In this document: piece by piece, positions 3,981 through 30,521 of the stretch
Layout of the letters: each line of letters opens with the position of its first letter
How positions within the stretch are numbered: position 1 is the first letter of the stretch
From: Emcibacter nanhaiensis
GTDB taxonomy: Bacteria > Pseudomonadota > Alphaproteobacteria > Sphingomonadales > Emcibacteraceae
Reading direction: 5' to 3'
NCBI RefSeq assembly: GCF_006385175.1
Contig: NZ_VFIY01000004.1
Coordinates: 186,001 to 250,000 of the forward strand
Length of the DNA stretch: 64,000 bases
Program-made: the position numbers and the translations under genes
The notes under the pieces: generated by a model
Database searches by the model: none
What the model saw: only the letters and a program-made list of their open reading frames with translations
Told to the model about the DNA's origin: nothing

Positions 3981-5023
3981 TGTCGAACGCTGTTGCTGAA
4001 CTGGACGAGGCAAAGCTCGCTGCTTATCTGGAAGGCCGGATTGCCGGATTCAGGGGGCCGCTCAAAGCGACCAAGTTTCCGGGCGGCCAGTCCAACCCCA
4101 CCTTCAGGCTGGAAACGGCAAGCGGCACCTATGTATTGCGCCGCAAGCCGCCGGGCACACTGTTGAAGTCTGCCCACGCGGTGGATCGGGAATTCCGGGT
4201 TATCTCCGCCCTCAGGGACACCGAGGTGCCGGTGGCGAAGGCTTATCACCTGTGCCAGGACGACGAGGTGATCGGCAGCTGGTTCTATGTGATGAGCTAT
4301 GAAGACGGGCGGATATTCTGGGACCCTGGTCTGCCGGATATGGCGAAAGAAGAGCGCCGCGCCTATTTCGACGAAATGAACCGGGTGATGGCCGCCATTC
4401 ATGATGTGGACCTGGACGCGGTCGGGCTTTCCGATTACGGCGCCCCCGGCAATTATTTCGAACGGCAGATCGGCCGCTGGTCCACGCAATATGTGGCCAG
4501 CCGCACCGATCAGTTCGAGGCCATGGAATTTCTGATGGAATGGCTGCCGGAACATATGCCGGCAGACGACGGCAGCGTCAGCCTGATCCATGGCGACTAC
4601 CGGCTCGACAATCTGATTTTCCACAAGGAAAAGCCACAGATCATCGCCGTGGTCGACTGGGAGCTGTCGACCCTGGGGCATCCGCTCGCTGACCTGTCTT
4701 ACCAGTGCATGCAGTGGCGGCTGCCTCGGGAATCCCCCGGCATCAAGGGACTGCAGGGCGTGAACCGGACCAGGGAAGGCCTGCCCACCGAGGCGGAATA
4801 TGTGCGGCAATATTGCGAGCGCCGCGGGATCGGCCCGATTACCGGCTGGCCCTTCTATCTGGCGTTTAATTTTTTCCGGCTCGCCGCCATTGTCCAGGGA
4901 GTCTACAAGCGGGCGCTGGACGGCAATGCCTCCAGCGAGAAGGCCCATATGATGGGGGCACTGGTGCCGGTAATCGCCCAGTTTGCCATTGACGTGATCA
5001 ACAGGGGGGAGGAAATCCAATGA
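3980..5023 (+). CDS. Phosphotransferase family protein (APH fold, ACAD10/11 kinase-like)
   Basis: The 347-residue protein has the aminoglycoside-phosphotransferase/choline-kinase fold. A nucleotide-binding beta lobe holds GGQSNPTFRLET and YVLRRKPPG (the ATP Lys), the catalytic loop is HGDYRLDNLIF at about residues 204-214, and the metal-binding DWE lies in VVDWELSTLGHPLADL near residue 225. It sits between and overlaps an acyl-CoA dehydrogenase (1 base) and an SDR (4 bases). In ACAD10/11 systems the equivalent kinase phosphorylates a 4-hydroxyacyl-CoA before the dehydrogenase acts, so the same job is plausible. Antibiotic modification is unlikely given the operon. Confidence 0.88.
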   Translation: MSNAVAELDEAKLAAYLEGRIAGFRGPLKATKFPGGQSNPTFRLETASGTYVLRRKPPGTLLKSAHAVDREFRVISALRDTEVPVAKAYHLCQDDEVIGSWFYVMSYEDGRIFWDPGLPDMAKEERRAYFDEMNRVMAAIHDVDLDAVGLSDYGAPGNYFERQIGRWSTQYVASRTDQFEAMEFLMEWLPEHMPADDGSVSLIHGDYRLDNLIFHKEKPQIIAVVDWELSTLGHPLADLSYQCMQWRLPRESPGIKGLQGVNRTREGLPTEAEYVRQYCERRGIGPITGWPFYLAFNFFRLAAIVQGVYKRALDGNASSEKAHMMGALVPVIAQFAIDVINRGEEIQ

Positions 5024-5784
5024 CCACTTACGATTATAAAGGTAAAGCTGTCCTGATCACCGGTGCCGGCTCCGGCTTCGGCCGGGCGGCGGCGCTCGCC
5101 TTCGCCAGGGCCGGGGCGGACCTCGCCCTGTCGGATGTGCAGCTCGAGCAGCTCAAGGAAACAGTGAGCCAGGCCGAAGCGCTCGGCGCTACCGTGGCCC
5201 ATTGCCTGTGTGACGTGCGGGACAAGGCCCAGGTACAGAATATGATCGACGGCTCTGTTTCGGTGCTCGGCCGCATCGATATCGCCATCAATAATGCCGG
5301 GGTGGAGCACGAAAACCTGCCCATAGCCCAATGCGATGACGAGCATTGGGAGAAAACCATGGATGTGAACCTGAAGGGAGTCTTCTACTGCCTGAAATAT
5401 GAACTGCTGCACATGATGGAACGCCAGCAGGGGGTGATCCTCAATGTCGCCTCGGTGGCGGGTCTTGTAGGTGCCCCCCGTCTCGGACCCTATGCTGCCA
5501 GCAAGCACGGCGTGATCGGGCTTACCCGGACTGCAGCGGCGGAAAATGCCCGCTATAACATCCGTGTCAACGCCATTTGCCCGGGGGTGACCGGCACTCC
5601 GATGGTGCAGCGGTTTCTGGACAGTGATCCGGAGGCGGTGAAAAAGATCGTCAGGGGAGTGCCCATGCACCGGATTGCCGAAGTTGATGAGATCGTGGAA
5701 GGTATGTTGTGGCTTTGCTCTGCCGGCAACAGTTTTATGACCGGTCAGGCAATCGCCTTTGATGGCGGGATGACGGCGGTCTGA
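5020..5784 (+). CDS. SDR-family NAD(P)-dependent oxidoreductase
   Basis: This 254-residue classical short-chain dehydrogenase shows GAGSGFGRA for the cofactor at residues 16-24, an acidic residue after strand 2 (ALSDVQ) that favours NAD(H), NNAGVE near residue 91, a catalytic Ser in VASVAG and YAASK as the catalytic Tyr/Lys. The C-terminal FDGG motif is present. The start ATG overlaps the preceding stop as ATGA, so it is translated from the same message as the dehydrogenase and kinase. It probably oxidises or reduces a hydroxy/keto intermediate of that acyl-CoA pathway; the substrate is not readable. Confidence 0.92.
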   Translation: MTTYDYKGKAVLITGAGSGFGRAAALAFARAGADLALSDVQLEQLKETVSQAEALGATVAHCLCDVRDKAQVQNMIDGSVSVLGRIDIAINNAGVEHENLPIAQCDDEHWEKTMDVNLKGVFYCLKYELLHMMERQQGVILNVASVAGLVGAPRLGPYAASKHGVIGLTRTAAAENARYNIRVNAICPGVTGTPMVQRFLDSDPEAVKKIVRGVPMHRIAEVDEIVEGMLWLCSAGNSFMTGQAIAFDGGMTAV

Positions 5785-5796
5785 TCTCTTTAAATT

Positions 5797-6282
5797 TCAG
5801 GCCCGGAACGGCACCACATAGGATTTGGTGACCGTGCGCAGGGAGAAATTGCTTTTGATCTGGCTGACCCCGGGCAGGGCGGTCAGCACATCCATATGCA
5901 GTCGCTCATAATCGGAGGCATCCGAGACAATCACCCGGAGCAGGTAATCCGCATCCCCGCTCATCAGGTAACATTCCATGATCTGCGGGCACTCCTTCAC
6001 CTTCTTTTCGAATTCGGCCAGCTTTTCCTTGGTCTGCTTCTCCACGGTGATCTGGACGAAAACATTGTCCGGAAAACCGGCAGCGGCCTGGTCGACAACC
6101 GCCGCATGGCCGATGATGATACCGTCTTCCTCCAGCGCCTTGACCCTGCGCAGGCAGGCGCTCTGGGACAGGCCGACCCGGTCGGCCAGGTCTGCATTGC
6201 TGATGCGGCCGTCTTCCTGTAGGATCCTGAGGATGGCAAGATCAATCTTGTCCAGTTCTATGTGATCAAATTTATTTCTCAT
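5797..6282 (-). CDS. Lrp/AsnC-family transcriptional regulator, probably of ald
   Basis: From the preferred ATG at 6280-6282 the protein has 161 residues; the open frame extends upstream without a good ribosome site. The N-terminal helix-turn-helix reads DLAILRILQEDGRISNADLADRVGLS followed by SACLRRVKALEEDG, the standard Lrp arrangement, and the C-terminal half is the RAM ligand domain (VFVQITV ... YLLRVIVSD). Lrp-type proteins assemble as octamers that sense amino acids. It is divergent from alanine dehydrogenase, and the shared 128-base gap contains repeated TTGCG/CGCAA half-sites, so alanine-responsive control of ald and of itself is a reasonable inference. Confidence 0.9.
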   Translation of the reverse strand: MRNKFDHIELDKIDLAILRILQEDGRISNADLADRVGLSQSACLRRVKALEEDGIIIGHAAVVDQAAAGFPDNVFVQITVEKQTKEKLAEFEKKVKECPQIMECYLMSGDADYLLRVIVSDASDYERLHMDVLTALPGVSQIKSNFSLRTVTKSYVVPFRA

Positions 6283-6295
6283 AATGGTTATTGTA

Positions 6296-6373
6296 CGCAA
6301 TATTATGCGAAGAAACAAGTTATCTGTCGCTTACTTCGCAAGGACATGCGGTGAGTTTTGCGTTATTCTTGCG
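6296..6373. promoter_or_regulatory. Cluster of TTGCG/CGCAA half-sites between lrp-like gene and ald
   Basis: The short gap holds CGCAA at 6296-6300, TGCGA at 6306-6310, CGCAA at 6337-6341, TGCGG at 6347-6351, and TTGCG at 6358-6362 and 6369-6373. Pairs are spaced 10-11 bases, one helical turn. Such phased half-sites fit wrapping of DNA around an Lrp/AsnC octamer. Spacing and repetition are seen; binding is inferred. Confidence 0.45.
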
Positions 6374-6410
6374 TCTTCTACAGGACAACCGCAGGACAGG
6401 GAGACTTCAT

Positions 6411-7511
<1,101 letters not shown>

Positions 7512-15698: not shown

Positions 15699-17054
15699 GT
15701 GAACGGTCGGAGTATGCTGGAAAAATTTATAGAAATGCTGCTGTACGATGTGGATGCGTCCGGTGCCAAGCAACCACGACAACGGACATTCGGACTCAGG
15801 ACCAAGCCGACCCCCTCAGTCGAAAAAAAGTTGATGAAAATGCTGTCCGAAAGTTCCATGGTGAACACCGGGCGCGTTCAGCTTCTGGGATTGAAGGAAC
15901 TGAAGGAAAAGATGGGGGACAGATGGCTGGATCTCAGGGAGTCGATACTCACCGGCCTCGAACAGATTGTCCTGAAACGCATCGGCAATCAGGATGTCTT
16001 TTTTTCCAGGAGCGAGGAAGAGCATCTGATTGTTTTCGCCCATCTGGCGGAGGATGAAGCGCGCCTGGTCTGCGCAAAAATACTTCAGGAACTTTCCATC
16101 AAGTTCCTGGGCCAGGTCGAAACCCGGGAGATTGTGGTCCGGACAGCAGTCGGTCAGTTTGACGGGCAATTGACTTTTGAGGAAGACACCCTCGATAACA
16201 TCCTGTCCAACATCGGCATGAAGGAGAATGCATCGCTGTCGGGTGATGAAGAAGACCCCTCGGATGCCCGCTCTGCCAGCAATCTGTTGAGATTTTTTTC
16301 AGGCGAAAACGACCGAATCCGGGAGTTGTTCAAAGTAACCTATGTTCCAATCTGGGACAGTAGGCACCAGGTATTGTCTACCTATGCCGTGGATTGTCAG
16401 ATGCGGGACAAGGTATCGAGCGGCAATTACTCGACTCTGATCAAGCGGCTGGAAAACCGGGACAGGGTTAGCCTGGACTATATGCTTGCAGATGAATGCG
16501 GTAACCAACTTCTGGAATTTTACGCCAAGAAATACCGGGCGGTTTTCTGCCTTCCGGTTTGCTATGATACCGTGTTCAATTCTCAACTTCTGACAGCATA
16601 TTCCCGTAAGATCGTGCAGATTCCCAAGGAGTTGTCCCGCTATACCATGATAACCTTGAAAGGGTTTCCCCAAGGGATGCCGTCCGGCAAAATTCTGGAT
16701 ATTGTTGCCATTCTCGGAAGATACTGTCCGGTCATTATGCTTGACTGTGACGAGTTTATTCCCAAGAACCTGGATTTCTATAAGGAGTGCGGCCTCAAGG
16801 GGATCAGGGTGCGTCTTGATCCGGACAAATCGGATAGTCAGGAATATTGGTCCGCTCTCGCCACCACGATTGACAAGTGTCGAAAAAAAACGCTCAAGGT
16901 TTCGCTGATAGAAGTGGGTGACCGCAAATCACTGCAGCAGGCTTATGAGTATGGGTTTGACTATATCAGTGGTGATGCCGTTCGACAAAAAACCAGTGCC
17001 CCTGGTCATATGCTGCGCGTAAATTTTGAAGAGCTGATCGCAGGAGATGAGTAG
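15699..17054 (+). CDS. Degenerate GGDEF-EAL protein, copy 1 (no catalytic motifs)
   Basis: I read this 451-residue soluble protein as a decayed GGDEF-EAL pair. At residues about 57-150 VQLLGLKELKEKMGDRW, then SRSEEEHLIVFAHL in the place of the GGDEF loop, then LVCAKILQELSIKFLG follow the order of a GGDEF domain. From about residue 210, TYVPIWDSRHQVLSTYAVD replaces the EAL strand, and the last third ends YEYGFDYISGDAV, like the QGY/F strand. GGDEF, EAL and the DDFGTG loop are all missing, so no c-di-GMP synthesis or cleavage is expected; ligand or protein binding is possible. A second copy of the same design lies at 20651. The GTG at 15699 or ATG at 15714 may be the start; neither has a good ribosome site. 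Confidence 0.7.
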   Translation: MNGRSMLEKFIEMLLYDVDASGAKQPRQRTFGLRTKPTPSVEKKLMKMLSESSMVNTGRVQLLGLKELKEKMGDRWLDLRESILTGLEQIVLKRIGNQDVFFSRSEEEHLIVFAHLAEDEARLVCAKILQELSIKFLGQVETREIVVRTAVGQFDGQLTFEEDTLDNILSNIGMKENASLSGDEEDPSDARSASNLLRFFSGENDRIRELFKVTYVPIWDSRHQVLSTYAVDCQMRDKVSSGNYSTLIKRLENRDRVSLDYMLADECGNQLLEFYAKKYRAVFCLPVCYDTVFNSQLLTAYSRKIVQIPKELSRYTMITLKGFPQGMPSGKILDIVAILGRYCPVIMLDCDEFIPKNLDFYKECGLKGIRVRLDPDKSDSQEYWSALATTIDKCRKKTLKVSLIEVGDRKSLQQAYEYGFDYISGDAVRQKTSAPGHMLRVNFEELIAGDE

Positions 17055-20650: not shown

Positions 20651-21997
20651 ATGGCGCAGGGCAAGCGATCGGTATTTGACAGGTTCAAATCAGGGAACGG
20701 GGGGCAAAAGCTGGCTCCGCCGAAAAGCAGGCCGCTGCGTTCCCTGTCCTCGGGCGATGACGGAAGTTCCTCGGTCAAACCCATCACCAACAGCAAACTC
20801 GAGAGCTTTCTGGAAAAGGATGACATCGCCCTGAGCGGGCGCGCCCAGTTGATCAGCATGCTGTCGATGAAGGAAAAAGTCGGTGACAGCTGGAACAGTG
20901 TAAAGGGGCGTATTGCTTCCGCTTTCGAAAGCTCTCTGGAAAGTTCCTGCAGTCCCAATGACAATTTGTTCAAGCGATCCGATGAAGAATATATAGCTAT
21001 TTTTTCGTCCCAGACAGCCGAGAACAAAAGCCCCGACGACCTGAGCAACATTTGCCGCAACCTGATGGTCGAAGTCGCCCGCAAATTCCTTGGCGAAATC
21101 GAGCCGGATCCCGATATCGCCCGAACCATCTATGGTTTCAAGGATGGAAAATTTCTCTTCGACCGTGAAGTCAGGGAAGGGCCGGACAGGAAAAAAGCCG
21201 GGTCGGCAGCCAAACCGGAGGAACAAAAATCCTCGGTCAATGACCTGTTCGTCAGCAATGAACGTTTTGATCTTCTGTACCGGCCCAACTGGAGTGTCAG
21301 TCACGAAACCATTACGACTTATTCGGTTCATGCCAGCGCCCACGACGCCCAGGACAATGTGCGTTACGACTATAATGTTCTGAAGGACAAGACTGCGCTC
21401 GAGTGTCTGATTGGTCTCGACTGGCTGCTGCTGTCCGACTCCATAGAAATTATGGAGGGACTTTATATCAACAATTTCAGAACCGTTTATGCCATCCCGG
21501 TCCATTACGAAACCGTGTTCAGTCCGGAACGCATCAAGGGATATCTGCTGCGCTGTAAGAAGATTCCGGAAGAGCTGAGGAAATATGTGATTTTTAACCT
21601 CACCGGCATTCCTGACGGCGTACCCGTTACAAAACTGCAGATGATTATTTCATCCCTGAAACCCTATTGCAACTCGGTGCAGCTTGAATGTGCCTCGTTG
21701 CCCAGAGACTGTTCAAAACTTGTCATGCCCGGGTTGCGGTACCTCAAATATCGTCTGCCGGATAAGGTGCCGTCCGATAAAAGTTACTGGGTGAAGATGG
21801 CGGAATTTGCCATTTCCTGCAAAAAGAACAAGCTGCTGAGTGTCATCACCAATGTCAATTCGGTCGAACACCTGATGATTACCCGGGAGATAGGTGTAAA
21901 TTTCCTCAGCGGTGATATAATAGGGAATTATTGCGAGATTCCCGAGCATATGCAGAAGATCAAGTGGCAGGAACTCGTCAATAAGGCAGAGTTCTAA
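20651..21997 (+). CDS. Degenerate GGDEF-EAL protein, copy 2 (no catalytic motifs)
   Basis: The 448-residue protein is a paralogue of the product at 15699, with the same order and similar lengths. RAQLISMLSMKEKVGDSW and FKRSDEEYIAIFSSQ stand where a GGDEF domain would have its helix and its GGDEF loop, and NLMVEVARKFLGEIEP follows. The EAL-like half begins DLLYRPNWSVSHETITTYSV near residue 215, contains ECASLPRDCSKLV, and ends TREIGVNFLSGDIIG. Neither GGDEF nor EAL nor DDFGTG residues remain. The two copies have diverged widely, so the duplication is old and both look maintained. ATG 20651 lacks a clear ribosome site. A non-catalytic receptor or scaffold role is an inference. Confidence 0.7.
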   Translation: MAQGKRSVFDRFKSGNGGQKLAPPKSRPLRSLSSGDDGSSSVKPITNSKLESFLEKDDIALSGRAQLISMLSMKEKVGDSWNSVKGRIASAFESSLESSCSPNDNLFKRSDEEYIAIFSSQTAENKSPDDLSNICRNLMVEVARKFLGEIEPDPDIARTIYGFKDGKFLFDREVREGPDRKKAGSAAKPEEQKSSVNDLFVSNERFDLLYRPNWSVSHETITTYSVHASAHDAQDNVRYDYNVLKDKTALECLIGLDWLLLSDSIEIMEGLYINNFRTVYAIPVHYETVFSPERIKGYLLRCKKIPEELRKYVIFNLTGIPDGVPVTKLQMIISSLKPYCNSVQLECASLPRDCSKLVMPGLRYLKYRLPDKVPSDKSYWVKMAEFAISCKKNKLLSVITNVNSVEHLMITREIGVNFLSGDIIGNYCEIPEHMQKIKWQELVNKAEF

Positions 21998-23288: not shown

Positions 23289-23840
23289 ATGTCAGAGAAA
23301 CAGAGCCGCCGCGTGAATGGCGGAGGAAAGATTTATCCTTACCGTGGGGTCTGGCCGACCATTCATGAAACCGCCTTCATCGCGCCGGGCGCGCGGATAA
23401 TCGGTGACGTGCATATCGGCGCCGGCAGCAGCATCTGGTTCAACTGCGTGCTGCGCGGTGACGTGAACAAAATCCGCATTGGCTGCAACAGCAATATCCA
23501 GGACGGTTCCGTGGTCCATGTGGAAGGCGGCGGGGCAGAGACAGTGATCGGCGACGATGTTCTGGTCGGACACCTGGCCCTGGTGCATGGAACAACCATC
23601 GAGGACGGTGGCTTTGTCGGCATGAAAGCTGTGACCATGGATGGCTGTCATATCGGCGCCCAGGGCATGCTGGGGGCAGGGGCTCTGCTCAGCCCGGGCA
23701 AGAAAATCGGCCCCGGTGAATTGTGGCTCGGTCAGCCGGCGCGTCATATACGCGATATGAGCGAAGAAATGAAAGCCGGCCTCAGGGACGGTACGGATCA
23801 CTACAAGCAGCTGGCCCAGGAGTATCTGGAAGACTACTGA
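23289..23840 (+). CDS. Gamma-carbonic anhydrase family protein (hexapeptide repeat)
   Basis: The 183-residue protein is a left-handed beta-helix trimer protein of the gamma-carbonic anhydrase/PaaY/YrdA group. Hexapeptide repeats run from about residue 35 to 140. The metal-ligand histidines fall in GSVVHV (near residue 79), VGHLALVHG (near 96 and 101), and the Arg/Gln pair in LRGDVNKIRIG and NIQDG is present. GGAGG before ATG 23289 supports the start. It may be an active carbonic anhydrase or an inactive scaffold; sequence alone does not decide. It probably shares a transcript with argC. Confidence 0.9.
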   Translation: MSEKQSRRVNGGGKIYPYRGVWPTIHETAFIAPGARIIGDVHIGAGSSIWFNCVLRGDVNKIRIGCNSNIQDGSVVHVEGGGAETVIGDDVLVGHLALVHGTTIEDGGFVGMKAVTMDGCHIGAQGMLGAGALLSPGKKIGPGELWLGQPARHIRDMSEEMKAGLRDGTDHYKQLAQEYLEDY

Positions 23841-23842
23841 GG

Positions 23843-24904
23843 TCAGACTTCAAAAACGTGCCGGAACGGAACTTCGCAGCGGGGCAGGCCGCTCATGCTC
23901 GGCTCGATATTCATTTCGATCATGGTCGGCCCCTTGTCGCTGACGGCGATGTCCAGACCCAGAAATCGGGTTTCCGGCATATAAGAAATGGCTTTGATGC
24001 CAAGCTCCCGGATTTCCTGCCACATGGGGATCTGGAAGCCAAGGATCTTCTCGCCACTGTCAGGGTGATGCGTGATTTCTGTCATGGCCGGGCTGCTCTG
24101 GTGAAGGAATTCCACAATACCGGTCTCGGGATTGATATTGCCGCTGACGCCGCCGGCTTCCGTATTATCCACCAGGGATCCCGCCCGGCCAATGCGAATT
24201 CTCGTGCCCAGGATTATGATATCCCCGGCCTTGTTTTCATAGATATACATGCGGATGGTGTTGACGCTGGTCGGATTGAGCTGCGACATGATCGGGTGCT
24301 GGGTCAAATATTCCTCCATCACCCAGCCGTCGGGATTTTCCTCTGCCAGCTGGTCATAGACTTCCCGTGCAGGATGGCTTTCATCGCTGGAAAGTTTTCT
24401 CAGGGTAATCTGTTCGCCGTCCAGGGAAATTTCACAGGCCTTGAAGCCGCTGCCGCCGTAGCCGACGATCTTTTTGATGCAGATCCTCTCGCCAACCATG
24501 GGGAGGAGAAAACGTTCGAAGTCCTCCGGGGTGGAGAGGGGGTGCCCGCCGGCGGTTTGGCCGTGCCTGGCATGGAAGGTGCCGAGATAGGCTGGCGTCG
24601 GCAGGTGGAAATGATTGAAATAGGCCTTTTCAAATGACTTATACTGGGAAACGCCGTGGTATTTGCCGCGATTGAGCTGATAAATCAGGTCCCGATATTT
24701 GGCGGGTGACGTGAAACCTGTCTTATAGTTCCAGCTCAGGCCCCGCCGCCACATGCGGGCATGATGATAGGTGGCATAGTTAATTCCGGTGGTCAGCCGC
24801 AGCCAGGCCATTTCCACTATCTGCCGCGCTACGGAAGCATGTCCTTCGTCAGCCCTGACACTACAGAGATCATATACATATTTGAATTTATTATCATTTT
24901 TCAT
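23843..24904 (-). CDS. ATP-grasp protein of the sugar-transfer-associated type, copy 2
   Basis: The 353-residue protein resembles the ATPgrasp_ST family. After an N-terminal helical part (residues 1 to about 110) come the ATP lysine and glycine-rich loop ICIKKIVGYGGSGFKACEI (about 133-151), SVNTIRMYIYENKAGDIIILGTRIRIG (about 220-246), and the metal-binding LGLDIAVSDKGPTMIEMNIEP near the C-terminus. These motifs look intact, so it should activate a carboxylate with ATP and join it to an amine or other nucleophile. It is the last gene of a four-gene minus-strand cluster, 6 bases after its paralogue, which is similar along the whole length. Its stop is 2 bases from the convergent carbonic anhydrase stop. 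Substrate unknown. Confidence 0.82.
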   Translation of the reverse strand: MKNDNKFKYVYDLCSVRADEGHASVARQIVEMAWLRLTTGINYATYHHARMWRRGLSWNYKTGFTSPAKYRDLIYQLNRGKYHGVSQYKSFEKAYFNHFHLPTPAYLGTFHARHGQTAGGHPLSTPEDFERFLLPMVGERICIKKIVGYGGSGFKACEISLDGEQITLRKLSSDESHPAREVYDQLAEENPDGWVMEEYLTQHPIMSQLNPTSVNTIRMYIYENKAGDIIILGTRIRIGRAGSLVDNTEAGGVSGNINPETGIVEFLHQSSPAMTEITHHPDSGEKILGFQIPMWQEIRELGIKAISYMPETRFLGLDIAVSDKGPTMIEMNIEPSMSGLPRCEVPFRHVFEV

Positions 24905-24910
24905 GCTTGA

Positions 24911-25969
24911 TCACGTTTTGAAGATGTGCCGGATTGGCGTCTCCGCAGTTGAAAGCCCATTCATGCTTGGTTCGATGTTCATCTCAATCATCACAGGCCC
25001 TTCTTCCGTGATGGCGATATCCAGTCCAAGGAACCTTGTTTTCGGCATATGGCTCAATGCATTTGCTCCCAGTTCCTTGGCTTCTTCCCAGAAGGGTACT
25101 TTGTAGCCTACAACCTGTTCCTTGCTGTCTGGGTGATGGGAAAGTGTATTCATAATAGGTGAATAGTGATAGGCCAGTTCGACAATGCCTGTCTCAATAT
25201 TCACATTGCAGCTGATGCCGCCAAGCTCGTTATTGTCCACCAAGGAACCGGCTGCACCGACCCGAAGCCGGGTGCCCAGAATGTGAATTTCGCCTTTTTC
25301 ATCCTGAAATACATGCATGCGCAGGGTGTTGACGCTGGATGCATTGAGCCTGGACAACTCCGGATGCTGGACAAGATAATCTTCGATAAGCCAGCCGTCG
25401 GGCTCTTTGACAAGTTCATAATATAGGTCGGCTGTTGTGCTTTGTGTTTCCGTGCCTGGTTTTTGCAGTGTTGTCCCGTTGTCGCTCGGCGTAATTTTAA
25501 ACGCCATGAAACCCCGGCCTCCATGTCCTTCGACTTTCTTGAAGCAGACGGTTTTTCCAGGATTTTCTGAAAAAAGTCTTTCGAGGTCTTCCTGGCTGCA
25601 GAGGGAGGTTCCCACGGGTGTCTTTCCGTTTTTCTCGTGGAAAAATCCCAGGTAGTCAGGCGTTTGCAGGCCAAAAAGACTAAAATAGGCTTTTTCCAGA
25701 GGTTTGTATTGGGAAACGCCATGGAACTTGCGATCATTCAGGCGCAATATCTCTTTTTTATAAAAGTCCTGGGACATAAAGCCGGTTTTGTATTCCCAGC
25801 TTACATCTTTGCGCCACATGCGAGCATAGTGATAGGTGGCATAACTGATCCCAGTTGTCATACGCAGATACATCATTTCCATGATCTGCCTTAGAACTGA
25901 GGCGTGGCCTTTGTCGGCCTTGTCCTTGCAGAGGTCGTAGACATATTTCACTTTTGATAAATTAGCCAT
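24911..25969 (-). CDS. ATP-grasp protein of the sugar-transfer-associated type, copy 1
   Basis: This 352-residue protein aligns with the next gene almost without gaps: both begin with YVYDLC and the GHASVxRQIxEM helix, share WxYKTGF and the (F/Y)HGVSQYK segment, then the ATP-binding CFKKVEGHGGRGFMAFKI, NTLRMHVFQDEKGEIHILGTRLRVG and the C-terminal LGLDIAITEEGPVMIEMNIEPSM. The catalytic residues are kept in both copies, which argues for two substrates or two steps instead of decay. The gene starts 20 bases after the second PP-loop gene. Base composition is visibly more A+T rich than the flanking housekeeping genes, which hints at acquisition. The product and role are unknown. Confidence 0.82.
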   Translation of the reverse strand: MANLSKVKYVYDLCKDKADKGHASVLRQIMEMMYLRMTTGISYATYHYARMWRKDVSWEYKTGFMSQDFYKKEILRLNDRKFHGVSQYKPLEKAYFSLFGLQTPDYLGFFHEKNGKTPVGTSLCSQEDLERLFSENPGKTVCFKKVEGHGGRGFMAFKITPSDNGTTLQKPGTETQSTTADLYYELVKEPDGWLIEDYLVQHPELSRLNASSVNTLRMHVFQDEKGEIHILGTRLRVGAAGSLVDNNELGGISCNVNIETGIVELAYHYSPIMNTLSHHPDSKEQVVGYKVPFWEEAKELGANALSHMPKTRFLGLDIAITEEGPVMIEMNIEPSMNGLSTAETPIRHIFKT

Positions 25970-25989
25970 GTGCTATCCGTTTGATATTA

Positions 25990-27186
25990 TTATTGCAGAT
26001 TTGATTTCAGAGGACGGTGCCCGGTTCTGTAGCGCTCCCACGCGCCTTTCTTATTGAACATCCTGTGCAATTTCCAGCCCCAGCCGCCGGTAATAGCTTT
26101 TACAAGATTGGTGAGGGCGTTTTTCACAATATAGTTCCGGCGGAGCTTTTTAAGCGCTTTCTCGAGGTCGACTGCATTGTGCCGGTGGGCAAAATAGATC
26201 AGGTCCTCGGTAAAGGGCAGGGTGCCTTCGGATGTTGGTTTCAGGTAATTTATATCGGCATGAGTTTTGAACGCCGGGAGGTTGGCGGAGTGTTTGCCCA
26301 GCACATCAAGCGCCACGGAGGTGCGGACACATTTCGGACAGTTGCCGCAATTGCTCCCGGAGGAGCGCCAGCACACCTGTAACTGATCCAGAAGTTCCTG
26401 GGACTGTGCCACATATTCCGTTTTCTGGCTTCTGGTTGCTTCAAGGCCGTCATGGATGATTTGTGTGCTTTCCGTACTCCACAATATATCCAGCAACGGA
26501 TGAGAACCCCACGGAAACATCGCATTATAGGGGAAGGTCGACGGAATATATAACCGTTCGGCGCCGAGCGTGACGGCCGTGCAACACAGTATGGCGCCGT
26601 GAACCGGAATGAACGGAATCCACCGGTTCTCAAGAAACGCCCTGCCGTTATTGTCGACAGGCACCAGTTTCTTGCCTTCCTTGTCTGCAAACTCCTGCCG
26701 ATTCCGGATATTCTGCTGCCAGCCATCCTCGTCTCTAAAGTTGTCAAATCCCTTGATCAGTATCAGGTGCGTGATCTGGTCCCGGTATTTGGCGTAGGTA
26801 TAGGTGCTGTCGATGCCGCCTGAATAACAGCAATAGACATCATCGGAAGTGTTGCTTGTTTTTTCCGTGCTTGCCACCAGTTGGACCTTGCTGAGGTCGC
26901 TGTTCCAGCTGCAGTAGATATTCTGGATTTCTTCAAAATGAGCGAGGATTTTTTCGGAGACGGGATACTCCGGATCCACCACGATCGGGCACCCCTGCAA
27001 CATGGCCTCAAAGATGCAAAAGGGAATGAAAATTTCCGGTCGGGCCTTGATGTCAATGTCCAATGGAAAACGGAACCAGACATGCTCACCGTCCAAAGTC
27101 GCGGACAGTTCCTGATAGTCCGGGTGTTTTGACAGGGTAACATCAGAAATTCTGATTTCTTTTTTCTGCGGAGCGGCGCCCGACAT
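25990..27186 (-). CDS. QueC-like PP-loop ATPase with zinc site, copy 2
   Basis: The 398-residue protein has SGGIDS at residues 122-127, the pyrophosphate loop of N-type ATP pyrophosphatases, after a roughly 115-residue N-terminal domain of unknown type (YQELSATLDGEHVWFRFPLD). The cysteines C272, C280, C283 and C286 in VCWRSSGSNCGNCPKCVRT have the C-x7-CGxC-x2-C spacing of the QueC zinc site. QueC itself is only about 230 residues. Such enzymes adenylate a carbonyl or carboxylate and then add ammonia or sulfur. It is 147 bases after its paralogue and 20 before the first ATP-grasp gene. GAGGAA and GGGAAC precede the ATG. Function not known. Confidence 0.8.
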   Translation of the reverse strand: MSGAAPQKKEIRISDVTLSKHPDYQELSATLDGEHVWFRFPLDIDIKARPEIFIPFCIFEAMLQGCPIVVDPEYPVSEKILAHFEEIQNIYCSWNSDLSKVQLVASTEKTSNTSDDVYCCYSGGIDSTYTYAKYRDQITHLILIKGFDNFRDEDGWQQNIRNRQEFADKEGKKLVPVDNNGRAFLENRWIPFIPVHGAILCCTAVTLGAERLYIPSTFPYNAMFPWGSHPLLDILWSTESTQIIHDGLEATRSQKTEYVAQSQELLDQLQVCWRSSGSNCGNCPKCVRTSVALDVLGKHSANLPAFKTHADINYLKPTSEGTLPFTEDLIYFAHRHNAVDLEKALKKLRRNYIVKNALTNLVKAITGGWGWKLHRMFNKKGAWERYRTGHRPLKSNLQ

Positions 27187-27333
27187 GTTCCCGATTCCTC
27201 AATCTGCTTCTGGCTATGCCTTTATATTCTGCTTTTATTTCGAAGATATTAGACACAATAGGTTTATTATTTCTCAACAAACAGGTAAAAGTCCGTGAGG
27301 TGCGCGGGATCTTTTTCCCGGCAATCCGCTTTA

Positions 27334-28530
27334 TCAGTCGTCGAGAATGGATTTTCTGGCGACAAGACCTGTCCGGTAAGCTTCCCATGGTCTGGGGAAG
27401 AATTTCTGTTTTAGATTGCGGACGCGGTTGCCCAATATCGTTTTGGCGATCATGGTCATGTTTGACGTGATGATATAATTGCGCTTCATCTTCAGCAGTT
27501 GCTTTTTGATGTCATGACGTCCGTGCTTGTGCATAAAGACTGCGAAATCGTCCATATAGCTCAGCGTCCCGTTGTCGTAAGGCTGTAACTGCTTCAGTTC
27601 GCCATGGCTCTGGTAGTCCGGCAGGCTTGCGGAGTTTTTACCCAGGACATCCAGAATAATAGATGTTCGCACACACTTGGAACAATTGCCGCAGTTGTCA
27701 CATTGCGAATAGCAACAGACCTGCAACTGGTCGAGCAGGTCCTGGAATTGCGCCACAAATTCGGTTTTCCTGGTACGGCTGGCCTCGCAGCCGTCATGGA
27801 TGATTTTCGTATTCTCCGTACTCCAGTTCACTTCCAGCAAGGGATGGGAACCGCAGGGGAAAAGGTCAGCATAGGTGTTGGAGGAAGGCACAATAAACGT
27901 CTCTGCGTTCAGGGTGACGCCCAGGCAGGCAAGGATGCTGCCAAGGACCGGAACCCAGTGCAGTTTTCTTTTGCCCAGGAATTCGATGGCGTTGTGGGTG
28001 ACGTCGACAAGCTTTTTATGTTCCTGATCAGCAAACGCCTTTCGGTCCGCCACGCATTTTTTCCAGCCTGACTTGTCTTTCAGTTGATCAAATCCTTCAA
28101 GCACCAGAAGATGGGTAATCTTGTCCCGATGTTTGGCATAGCTGTAGGAGCTGTCGATCCCTCCGGAAAAACAGCAATAGACATCTGCGCTTTTTTCATC
28201 CTGGATCCCGGCTGTCGCGACAAGCTGCGTGCGATTGAGGTCGCTGTTCCAGCAGGTGTAAATATCCTGAATTTCTTCGAAACCCGTCAGCAATTCGGCT
28301 GATACGGGAAAATCCGGATGTATGACAATGGGAACCTTGCGCAGCATGGCGTCAAACAGGCAGAACGGAATGAACGCTTCGGGACGGGCCCTGACTGGGA
28401 CATCCGCCGGGAAACGAAACCAGACTTTTTCGTCGTCAATGAGCGCAGAAAGCTCCTGGTATGCCGGGCCTTTGTCAATCCGGATATCAGATATTGTAAT
28501 ATTATTGCCGATACGCGAATGCATATTCAT
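27334..28530 (-). CDS. QueC-like PP-loop ATPase with zinc site, copy 1
   Basis: The first gene of the cluster encodes 398 residues, exactly the length of the next gene's product. SGGIDS (122-127), HPLLE near residue 229, WSTEN-T-IIHDG, and the zinc cysteines C272, C280, C283 and C286 fall at identical positions. ADVYCCFSGGIDSSYSYAKHRDKITHL shows the loop and following helix. The N-terminal domain is shared with copy 2 and has no match I recognise. GGGTGGGGG lies 7 bases before ATG 28530. A 26-base inverted repeat upstream may be an operator. As with the partner, an ATP-dependent amide- or thio-forming role is inferred from fold only. Confidence 0.8.
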   Translation of the reverse strand: MNMHSRIGNNITISDIRIDKGPAYQELSALIDDEKVWFRFPADVPVRARPEAFIPFCLFDAMLRKVPIVIHPDFPVSAELLTGFEEIQDIYTCWNSDLNRTQLVATAGIQDEKSADVYCCFSGGIDSSYSYAKHRDKITHLLVLEGFDQLKDKSGWKKCVADRKAFADQEHKKLVDVTHNAIEFLGKRKLHWVPVLGSILACLGVTLNAETFIVPSSNTYADLFPCGSHPLLEVNWSTENTKIIHDGCEASRTRKTEFVAQFQDLLDQLQVCCYSQCDNCGNCSKCVRTSIILDVLGKNSASLPDYQSHGELKQLQPYDNGTLSYMDDFAVFMHKHGRHDIKKQLLKMKRNYIITSNMTMIAKTILGNRVRNLKQKFFPRPWEAYRTGLVARKSILDD

Positions 28531-28568
28531 CTTGTTTCCCCCACCCTTTTAGCCCCTCCCGCGGGCAA

Positions 28569-28594
28569 CTATATTTTAGTTTTAACAAATATAG
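28569..28594. promoter_or_regulatory. Inverted repeat upstream of the PP-loop/ATP-grasp cluster
   Basis: CTATATTT at 28569-28576 and AAATATAG at 28587-28594 are perfect complements around 10 bases, 39 bases before the first gene of the cluster. It may be an operator or an mRNA hairpin; the AT-rich stem is too weak for a terminator. Confidence 0.35.
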
Positions 28595-28672
28595 CGGGAA
28601 GTAGAACAACCGCAAAGCAAATACGGCCTGGTTCTAACTTTGAAGTGATGAAAAATATGAATCCGGGGGCGG

Positions 28673-30454
28673 CTAGTAGCGAATTTTTACGTAGCTGCCC
28701 GGTGCATCCTCGATGATTTCAAGTTTGCCGTCGCCCGGAACCCTGGCGTCCACTTTTTTACCGGATCTTTTCTTCAGCCAGTTATGCCAGTCGTCCCACC
28801 AGGAACCAGGATGGTCCTCGGCCTGCGCAAGCCAGTCGTCAGGATTTTCCGGAGTATCCGTGTTCACCCAGTGATTGTATTTTTTGGCGGCCGGCGGGTT
28901 TACCACCCCGGCGATATGCCCCGACCCGGCCAGCATGAACCGGCGTTCCCCGCTGAACTGCTGGGTGGCCTTGTACACTGATTTCCAAGGACAGATATGG
29001 TCAGTCTGCGCAGCCTGGATATAGGTCGGAATCGTGATATTGGCGAGATCAATCGGCGTATCATGCAGGACGAATGCGCCCGGTTTGACCAGGTTGTTTT
29101 CCTTGTACATCTCCCTGAGGTACTGGGAATGACAGGCCCGTGTCAGCCGGGTTGAATCGCTGTTCCAGTAGAGCAGGTCAAAGGGGAAGGGATCCCGGCC
29201 CAGGAGGTAATTATTGATGACAAAGGACCAGATCAGGTCGTTGGAGCGCAGCATGTTGAAGGTCTGGGCCATGGTGCTGCCGTCGAGATAGCCTTTTTCC
29301 TCCATCAGGTTTTCCATCACCGCCAGCTGCCGGTCGTCGACAAACAGTTTCAGTTCGCCGGACTCACTGAAATCCACCTGGGTGACCAGGAAGGTGGCGC
29401 TTTTCACCCGGTCGATGGACTCTTTGGCGCCGAGGAAGGCCAGGGTGCAGGCCAGAAGGGTGCCGCCGATGCAATAGCCGATGGCGTTGACCGATTTTTC
29501 GCCGGTGGCGTCTTCAATGGCGCCGAGGGCGGACAGGGGGCCAAGGGTCATATAATCGGCAAAATCAAGATCAGCCATGCTTTCGTCCGGATTTTTCCAC
29601 GAGATGACAAAAACCGTATAGCCTTTCTCCACCAGCCAGCGAATGAGGGAGTTTTCCGGCCGCAGGTCGAGGATGTAGAATTTGTTGATCCAGGGCGGCG
29701 TAATCAGGACCGGTGTTTTATAGACCGTCTCTGTCAGCGGCTCATACTGGATCAGCTGGATCAATTCATTCTGGTACACCACTTTGCCGGGGGTGGTGGC
29801 AACATTCTTGCCCAGCTCGAACGCCGTTTCGTCGGTCATGCGGATCCTGAATTCGCCGGTTTCCGGATTGATGTCCTTGGCAATATTTTCCAGGCCGTTC
29901 AGCAGGTTCTTGCCGTTCTTTTCGATGGTCTCCCGGATCACTTCCGGATTGGTCATGGCAAAATTGGTCGGTGACATGGCGTCAATGAACTGGCGGGCAT
30001 AAAATTTAAGCTTCTGGCCCTCATGGCTCTCCGCCTGTGGGTTTTCCTCCACCAGGTTTTCGATCCATTTCGAGGACAGCAGGTAGGATTGCTTGATATA
30101 GTCGAAGATCTGGTTTTCTTCCCACTCCTTGTCCTTGAATCGTCGATCCTCTTTGGCCGGGCTGACGATAGGCTCCACATCCTGGTCCCCGACCATTTTC
30201 TTGGCGGTGGACTGCCAGAGTTTCATGTAATCTTTCCACAGATTGACCTGCTTTTCGACAATCTGCTCCGGATGCTCGGCAAAATATTTGGTCATTTCCA
30301 TCATGGCGCCGGACAGGTTCAGGGGGTCAGGATCGGAAGGGGCGGACTGTTCCTTTTGCCGTTCCAGGAAATCTGAAGCCAGCTTCTGAAACTTCTCGGT
30401 ATAGGCCTTCATGTTTTCCGCAAATTGTTCCATGTCAGGCGTCTCTTTATCCAT
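28673..30454 (-). CDS. phaC: Poly(3-hydroxyalkanoate) synthase, class I
   Basis: The 593-residue enzyme has the long N-terminal domain of class I PhaC and an alpha/beta-hydrolase core. The lipase-like box is GYCIGGT with catalytic Cys328, DHICPW supplies the Asp and GSGHIAGVVNPP the His. PWINKFYILDLRPENS and ISWKNPD are family hallmarks. It polymerises 3-hydroxyacyl-CoA at the surface of cytosolic PHA granules. ATG 30452-30454 follows a perfect AGGAGG with a 6-base spacer and is preferred over the 17-residue longer frame. No phaA, phaB or phasin gene is nearby. Confidence 0.96.
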   Translation of the reverse strand: MDKETPDMEQFAENMKAYTEKFQKLASDFLERQKEQSAPSDPDPLNLSGAMMEMTKYFAEHPEQIVEKQVNLWKDYMKLWQSTAKKMVGDQDVEPIVSPAKEDRRFKDKEWEENQIFDYIKQSYLLSSKWIENLVEENPQAESHEGQKLKFYARQFIDAMSPTNFAMTNPEVIRETIEKNGKNLLNGLENIAKDINPETGEFRIRMTDETAFELGKNVATTPGKVVYQNELIQLIQYEPLTETVYKTPVLITPPWINKFYILDLRPENSLIRWLVEKGYTVFVISWKNPDESMADLDFADYMTLGPLSALGAIEDATGEKSVNAIGYCIGGTLLACTLAFLGAKESIDRVKSATFLVTQVDFSESGELKLFVDDRQLAVMENLMEEKGYLDGSTMAQTFNMLRSNDLIWSFVINNYLLGRDPFPFDLLYWNSDSTRLTRACHSQYLREMYKENNLVKPGAFVLHDTPIDLANITIPTYIQAAQTDHICPWKSVYKATQQFSGERRFMLAGSGHIAGVVNPPAAKKYNHWVNTDTPENPDDWLAQAEDHPGSWWDDWHNWLKKRSGKKVDARVPGDGKLEIIEDAPGSYVKIRY

Positions 30455-30521
30455 CCAGTTCCTCCTCGAATCCGACCATTGGCAATTGATGAGTCCCTCA
30501 TGCATAATATTTTATGGGGCT

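Follow-up and report, generated by a model that had tools for sequence, protein, structure and literature searches.

A mobile, doubled pair of PP-loop and ATP-grasp genes in Emcibacter nanhaiensis and its possible role in decorating a surface polysaccharide

PP-loop enzymes of the QueC type adenylate a carboxylate or carbonyl with release of pyrophosphate, after which an amine or ammonia attacks, and ATP-grasp ligases form an acyl phosphate first and an amide next. Sugar amidotransferases of the WbpG type, which have the QueC fold, are a precedent for such chemistry on surface glycans (PMC13329287, PMC10607449), and Cj1438C, a TupA-like ATP-grasp protein, amidates the C6 carboxylate of glucuronic acid in the capsule of Campylobacter jejuni (PMC11800379). 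The reaction of QatC in phage defence is unsolved (PMC13279940), and the 2026 survey of the QueC family mentions no polysaccharide or ATP-grasp partners (PMC13329287). Here we describe a cluster of four genes in a 64,000-nucleotide stretch of the Emcibacter nanhaiensis genome (contig NZ_VFIY01000004.1, positions 186,001 to 250,000; hereafter the window), which encode two QueC/QatC-like PP-loop proteins (PP1 and PP2) and two ATP-grasp proteins (ATPg1 and ATPg2).

We read this cluster as a mobile, doubled two-enzyme module that amidates or aminoacylates a surface polysaccharide or its nucleotide-sugar or lipid-linked precursor, an interpretation that we place just on the likely side, since elsewhere among bacteria the same two kinds of gene are again found next to genes for surface sugars. 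The computed part of the case comprises intact motifs, folds, recurrence of the pair, an exopolysaccharide context elsewhere, insertion, and recent duplication of both genes. The reaction type, the substrate, the order of steps and a joint operon are what we infer: the PP-loop enzyme would adenylate a carbonyl or carboxylate of a glycan unit and attach either ammonia or some small amine, its ATP-grasp partner would form an acyl phosphate and join a carboxylate (e.g., of a uronic acid or amino acid) to an amine as an amide, and the two enzyme pairs may act on two positions or substrates.

The cluster and its four proteins

All four genes are intact open reading frames running from ATG to stop on the minus strand (23843-28530), with the transcription order PP1, PP2, ATPg1, ATPg2:

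27334..28530, minus strand: PP1, QueC/QatC-like PP-loop protein, 398 aa, first gene transcribed (open reading frame)
27187..27333, minus strand: gap of 147 bp between PP1 and PP2
25990..27186, minus strand: PP2, second QueC/QatC-like PP-loop protein, 398 aa (open reading frame)
24911..25969, minus strand: ATPg1, ATPgrasp_ST carboxylate-amine ligase, 352 aa (PF14397, E 2.4e-46)
23843..24904, minus strand: ATPg2, ATPgrasp_ST carboxylate-amine ligase, 353 aa (PF14397, E 4.5e-42)

The other gaps within the cluster are just 20 and 6 bp, so PP2, ATPg1 and ATPg2 are tightly packed, and no promoter or terminator at the cluster scored above chance when compared with shuffled sequence. These coordinates, the lengths and the motif positions below agree exactly with a preliminary description of the window, which had also recognized two paralogous pairs on the minus strand; PP1 and PP2 are 52% identical, and ATPg1 and ATPg2 are 55% identical. 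Genome-wide, the PP-loop query and PF14397 match these four genes only.

Both PP-loop proteins carry SGGIDS at residues 122-127 and the cysteines C272, C280, C283 and C286, as previously described. The cysteines form a putative zinc site, spaced C(x)7CxxCxxC (C(x)8CxxCxxC in canonical QueC). Profile comparison with the PP-loop family recognizes canonical QueC (hhalign E 5e-6, 173 columns). The QueC motifs YxQxHxxE, VPxRN and YPDC are absent from the PP-loop family alignment, whereas they are invariant or nearly so in an alignment of canonical QueC, and a His-Pro motif invariant in the 14 closer PP-loop relatives stands roughly where YPDC would be. On the QueC model of Pfam, PF06508, PP2 reaches 12.2 bits against a cut-off of 22, and PP1 is not listed. 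A role in the deazaguanine pathway was rejected, given that the host genome has its own canonical QueC elsewhere and that the PP-loop family is without the motif that binds 7-carboxy-7-deazaguanine (CDG).

The AlphaFold2 model of PP2 (predicted local distance difference test, pLDDT, 90.4) has a PP-loop core preceded by an N-terminal domain and followed by C-terminal helices. Of the solved structures, QatC matches it best (9y01, chain B; Z 14.3, 288 residues, root-mean-square deviation 4.9), over model residues 6-347 including the N-terminal domain, ahead of QueC (Z 11.8) and Cap9 (Z 10.7), both covering the core only. Foldseek searches with the same model gave weak E-values throughout, with QueC ranked first, and we therefore treat the QatC match as a likeness of fold and not as family membership. 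Sequence profiles of the PP-loop family retrieved no solved structure below E 0.1, and the kinship with QatC rests on structure and on a reading of published motifs. The profile phrog_1550 proved to be mainly canonical QueC.

The structural match, along with the conserved His-Pro and the lack of QueC substrate motifs, both as in QatC (PMC13329287, PMC13279940), would suit a QatC/Cap9-like protein modification or anti-phage function, in which the PP-loop protein would couple a partner protein, through its N-terminus, to a carboxylated nucleobase or another acid. We nevertheless consider this improbable. PADLOC returned no defence-system match for the cluster, for which reason identity as a defence system was rejected, and no QatA-, QatB- or QatD-like neighbour was recognized at any locus. 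Neither ATP-grasp protein starts with Met-Gly, the Tyr-Pro-Asp-Cys of CDG recognition is missing, and the genomic contexts are polysaccharide loci, not defence islands. Less probable still, to the point of being far-fetched, is a sulfur transferase that makes a thio-carboxylate or thioamide: TtuA, LarE, ThiI and MnmA do appear among the structure matches, but QatC, QueC and Cap9 outrank all of them, and the cysteines, all four invariant across 33 sequences, are arranged as in the zinc pattern of QueC (CxxCxxC).

The two ATP-grasp proteins score 144.6 and 158.6 bits against PF14397 (ATPgrasp_ST, "sugar-transfer associated"; cut-off 31.4). The preliminary description had both copies keeping their ATP and metal motifs, and indeed ATPg1 and ATPg2 retain 14/14 residues invariant in a 10-sequence alignment of the family, including K144, R217/218, D317/318, E329/330 and N331/332. 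The model of ATPg1 (pLDDT 88.8) matches ArgX (Z 16.3), RimK (Z 16.1) and LysX (Z 15.9), all ligases that join a carboxylate to an amine, over approximately 205-214 residues, and DcsG is also among its matches. No characterized substrate was found for ATPgrasp_ST (PF14397).

Recurrence of the pair and its surroundings elsewhere

In profile searches, the PP-loop family was found in 10/398 genomes of the phylum (host included) and in 16/391 genomes of one gammaproteobacterial order. An ATPgrasp_ST gene adjoins a PP-loop relative in seven other genomes (loci L014, L012, L085, L088, L086, L044 and L092). Three points on which the preliminary description might have failed came out in its favour: the genes do stay together elsewhere, the search for homologues turned up none of defined function, and none of the motifs is broken. 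The arrangements differ, with two PP-loop genes and one ATP-grasp gene each in L085 and L088, a single PP-loop gene flanked by two ATP-grasp genes in L012, and a RimK-like ATP-grasp gene between the PP-loop and ATPgrasp_ST genes in L092.

Among 28 genomes chosen for having the PP-loop gene, 6/14 ATPgrasp_ST copies are at most 3 kb away from it (binomial p ~3e-12) and 8/14 at most 8 kb, against an expectation well below 1; this count left out one high-scoring PF14397 subfamily (>290 bits). Given this choice of sample, and since some of the genomes share a genus, such p-values are too favourable; a count by lineage gives approximately seven independent instances of the pair, including the one in the window. 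The tree places both PP-loop proteins of the window in a clade of 12 members (support 100/99), to which most of the ATP-grasp-linked PP-loop proteins belong. An ATP-grasp gene is next door at 6/8 complete loci inside this clade, compared with 2/28 outside it (Fisher p 0.0004). The identities among PP-loop proteins also rise and fall with those among the ATP-grasp proteins of the same loci (Mantel r 0.86, p 0.002, n=7), which fits a joint inheritance of the two genes, with shared species history contributing.

Where the flanks of the pair are informative, they are exopolysaccharide loci, with exosortase A-type clusters, flippases and glycosyltransferases. Exosortase A system hydrolases 1 and 2 are found near the module in L012 and L085 (L085 also has an asparagine-synthase-type amidotransferase), an exosortase near the PP-loop gene in L044 and L046, a flippase in L086 and L087, and a glycosyltransferase and a GNAT protein near the module in L044. 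The sugar-transfer neighbourhood of ATPgrasp_ST is likewise seen in L012, L044, L085, L086 and L088. Polysaccharide pyruvyl transferase is a common neighbour in the wider family: 8/19 copies are no more than 8 kb from the PP-loop gene, and it is found beside PP-loop relatives on plasmids of Gloeothece (two), Azospirillum and Gemmobacter. Both this conserved context and the folds support the preliminary suggestion that the enzymes make or attach an unusual amide or a modified sugar. In the exosortase A exopolysaccharide cluster of L012, we also observed a Mur-ligase-like protein fused to a peptidyl-tRNA hydrolase domain (5463-7286).

Several points weigh against a role in glycan decoration. No glycan gene adjoins the module in the host genome or in G001, a genome of the same family as the host in which the pair is that of L014, and the exosortase with its associated hydrolases and amidotransferase, like the sugar-transfer neighbourhood, is absent from the window. 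Two complete loci of the same clade, L016 and L087, are without an adjacent ATP-grasp gene, and among the more distant PP-loop relatives many have no ATP-grasp gene anywhere near. We know of no PP-loop family member with a tested reaction, the name of the ATPgrasp_ST family is itself based on gene context, and gene context cannot separate ammonia, amine and sulfur transfer. The preliminary statement that no precursor peptide, glycosyltransferase or exporter is adjacent holds within the window, where we found no glycosyltransferase, exporter or convincing small open reading frame next to the cluster, but it does not extend to other genomes, in which glycosyltransferases and the like flank the module. 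The host does have a separate polysaccharide cluster on another contig, with a WbuX-type sugar amidotransferase, a flippase and a pyruvyl transferase, and thus a possible target glycan exists. In this main surface-polysaccharide cluster (contig C18, L134), the WbuX/WbpG N-acetyl sugar amidotransferase and its HisF- and HisH-like partners, named by eye, occupy 4389-6932.

The lack of glycan genes beside the copies in the window and in G001 would also be expected if the product were a soluble amide or peptide-like metabolite (a cofactor, osmolyte or antibiotic), with the ATP-grasp enzyme joining amino acids and the PP-loop enzyme amidating or making a nitrile. Nonribosomal peptide synthetases near PP-loop relatives on the two Gloeothece plasmids, the presence of RimK, LysX, ArgX and DcsG among the ATP-grasp model matches, and a weak match of the nitrile synthetase ArtA to the PP-loop model (Z 7.8) point the same way. 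We regard this as unlikely, though deserving of some weight, because most of the informative contexts are polysaccharide loci, the Gloeothece loci themselves also carry glycosyltransferases and a pyruvyl transferase, and no exporter, carrier protein or precursor peptide lies beside the window genes. A more elaborate scheme, in which QatC-like enzymes, from a QueC-superfamily branch closely akin to QatC, would link an amine of a surface glycan directly to an activated acid (perhaps a carboxylate of nucleobase or amino-acid type) and the ATP-grasp enzyme would extend it to give a peptide- or base-tagged polysaccharide, strikes us as a long shot.

Insertion into a conserved block and doubling

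The cluster interrupts a block of genes that is otherwise conserved:

23841..28672, no strand assigned: inserted islet, the four genes plus approximately 140 bp upstream, between the gamma-carbonic-anhydrase-like gene and phaC (synteny with three relatives)
23289..23840, plus strand: left boundary, hexapeptide-repeat gamma-carbonic-anhydrase-like gene (gCA), outside the module (Pfam Hexapep; synteny)
28673..30505, minus strand: right boundary, phaC, polyhydroxyalkanoate synthase, outside the module (PhaC_N E 1.3e-75; synteny)

The relatives G002, G003 and G034 keep the block rpsI ... argC-gCA-phaC-aat (aminotransferase)-hom-glpX without the four genes, with gCA followed directly by phaC (approximately 30-150 bp between them, no insert), from which it follows that the host genome gained the four genes by insertion. 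The PP-loop gene is present in only 6/60 relatives, the host counted among the six, and the pair in G001 lies at another place; the module is thus patchy and mobile. No transposase or flanking repeats that would explain the insertion were seen around the cluster. The cluster is, as the preliminary description noted, more A+T rich than its flanks (GC 0.48-0.54 in the four genes, compared with 0.54-0.64 in most flanking genes). This agrees with insertion but is weak evidence alone, and a horizontal origin argued from composition alone was rejected as too weak, since the GC content at third codon positions is equally low in several unrelated genes of the window.

Near the place of insertion, the relative G003 has a different ATPgrasp_ST protein between rpsI and argC (L140, 6759-7976; 405 aa, PF14397 E 3e-38), which is 25-30% identical to the ATP-grasp proteins of the window. 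The rpsI/argC neighbourhood is perhaps a favoured insertion site. Elsewhere in the window, two similar-looking proteins of approximately 450 aa (15714-17054 and 20651-21997) flank a PAS/methyl-accepting chemotaxis pair, and two such genes stand in tandem in another relative (L136, 5268-8102).

PP1 and PP2 are sisters in the tree (support 100/97), and so are ATPg1 and ATPg2, though somewhat less well supported (92/96). The two splits postdate the divergence from G001 and are about equally deep (path lengths of 0.89 and 0.86 changes per site), so that the doubling of both genes took place in the host lineage and at roughly one time. The order PP-PP-ATP-ATP speaks against plain tandem duplication of a two-gene unit. 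In no locus but the window was exactly 2+2 found; elsewhere the arrangement is 1+1, 2+1 or 1+2. At least nine other loci have PP-loop genes side by side in twos or threes (including L013, L018, L045, L046, L048, L055, L085, L088 and L089), and doubling is thus a habit of the PP-loop family. L089 (23-3771, genome G718) has three PP-loop genes in a row, of which two sit on a very long branch, and is without the neighbouring ATP-grasp gene and deacetylase that the sister genomes of G718 have. In G001, the decayed 3' end of a second ATP-grasp gene lies directly upstream of the intact one (L014, 12342-12638), which is doubling being lost.

The preliminary description took the intact catalytic residues of both copies to suggest two reactions or two substrates. 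The residues are intact in all copies and the suggestion is possible, but the duplications are recent and lineage-specific, a relative has a decayed copy, and dosage or complex formation would fit equally well. PP1 differs from the rest of its clade at 4/38 otherwise identical columns (H196L and D233E among them, close to where the substrate side is expected), while PP2 departs at three such columns, all mildly; the changes in PP1 are compatible with a shifted substrate. The alternative that doubling reflects dosage or neutral retention, with both copies carrying out the same reaction and one on its way out, is compatible with any reading of function and seems to us plausible, if short of probable. 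The sister relationships of similar depth, the decayed piece in G001 and copy numbers that vary freely among loci (1-3 PP-loop genes, 1-2 ATP-grasp genes) all agree with it. Nevertheless, catalytic residues intact in every copy at 52-55% identity indicate that both copies have long been under selection, and 10 examined loci, including the window, keep two or three PP-loop genes.

Comparison with known systems

No published account of a PP-loop/ATP-grasp module was found in the open-access literature (most subscription papers were outside this scope), nor was anything found there on DUF6395 or the "sugar-transfer associated ATP-grasp". The kinds of enzyme are known, and their pairing as a module was found in no published description. 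If this chemistry were worked out on glycans, new decorations of surface sugars could come to light, along with clues to the action of QatC, and the relocatable islet is small and self-contained.

Among ATP-grasp enzymes, ATPg1 and ATPg2 share the fold and the metal and ATP residues with RimK, LysX and ArgX, while an N-terminal helical region of approximately 60 residues falls largely outside the matched part. The C-terminal domain of Cj1438 is a working precedent for amide formation by an ATP-grasp enzyme on a capsule sugar; it resembles ATPg1 and ATPg2 in the ATP-grasp fold but belongs to another Pfam family and has no PP-loop partner. The WbpG/WbuX N-acetyl sugar amidotransferases (TIGR03573; LpNASAT) are zinc-binding PP-loop enzymes, similar in length to PP1 and PP2, that amidate a sugar substituent for surface polysaccharide. 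In contrast, the cysteines of PP1 and PP2 are all C-terminal to the PP-loop, there are no HisH/HisF partner genes, and the NCBIfam model TIGR03573 did not match the PP-loop proteins of the cluster up to E 1, while a positive control from the host genome scored 297 bits.

With canonical QueC, PP1 and PP2 share the SGGxDS PP-loop, a putative zinc tetracysteine site and a Rossmann-like core, and differ in lacking YxQxHxxE/VPxRN/YPDC, in having an extra N-terminal domain and C-terminal helices, and in scoring below the PF06508 cut-off, as well as below the Pfam model used in the 2026 QueC survey. The fold of QatC (from the qatABCD anti-phage system; PDB 9y01/9y02, PMC13279940) is like that of PP2 over nearly its whole length, from the N-terminal alpha/beta extension through the PP-loop core to the C-terminal helices, and QatC and the PP2 family are alike in their putative zinc-site cysteines, the His-Pro motif and the absence of QueC substrate motifs. 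Identity is approximately 11%, however, and the zinc spacing differs, being Cx7CxxCxxC in PP1 and PP2 and Cx19CxxCxx in QatC (variant C(x)19CGxCxxRR), such that a fourth Cys in PP1 and PP2 replaces Arg. The module in the window is also unlike qatABCD in its neighbours, which are the ATP-grasp genes, the gamma-carbonic-anhydrase-like gene and phaC, with no qatA, qatB or qatD nearby, and the PP-loop family is unlike QatC in its pairing with an ATP-grasp ligase and its occurrence in polysaccharide loci. This family is a widespread but patchy QueC-like branch, closest in fold to QatC, that accompanies an ATP-grasp ligase and polysaccharide genes.

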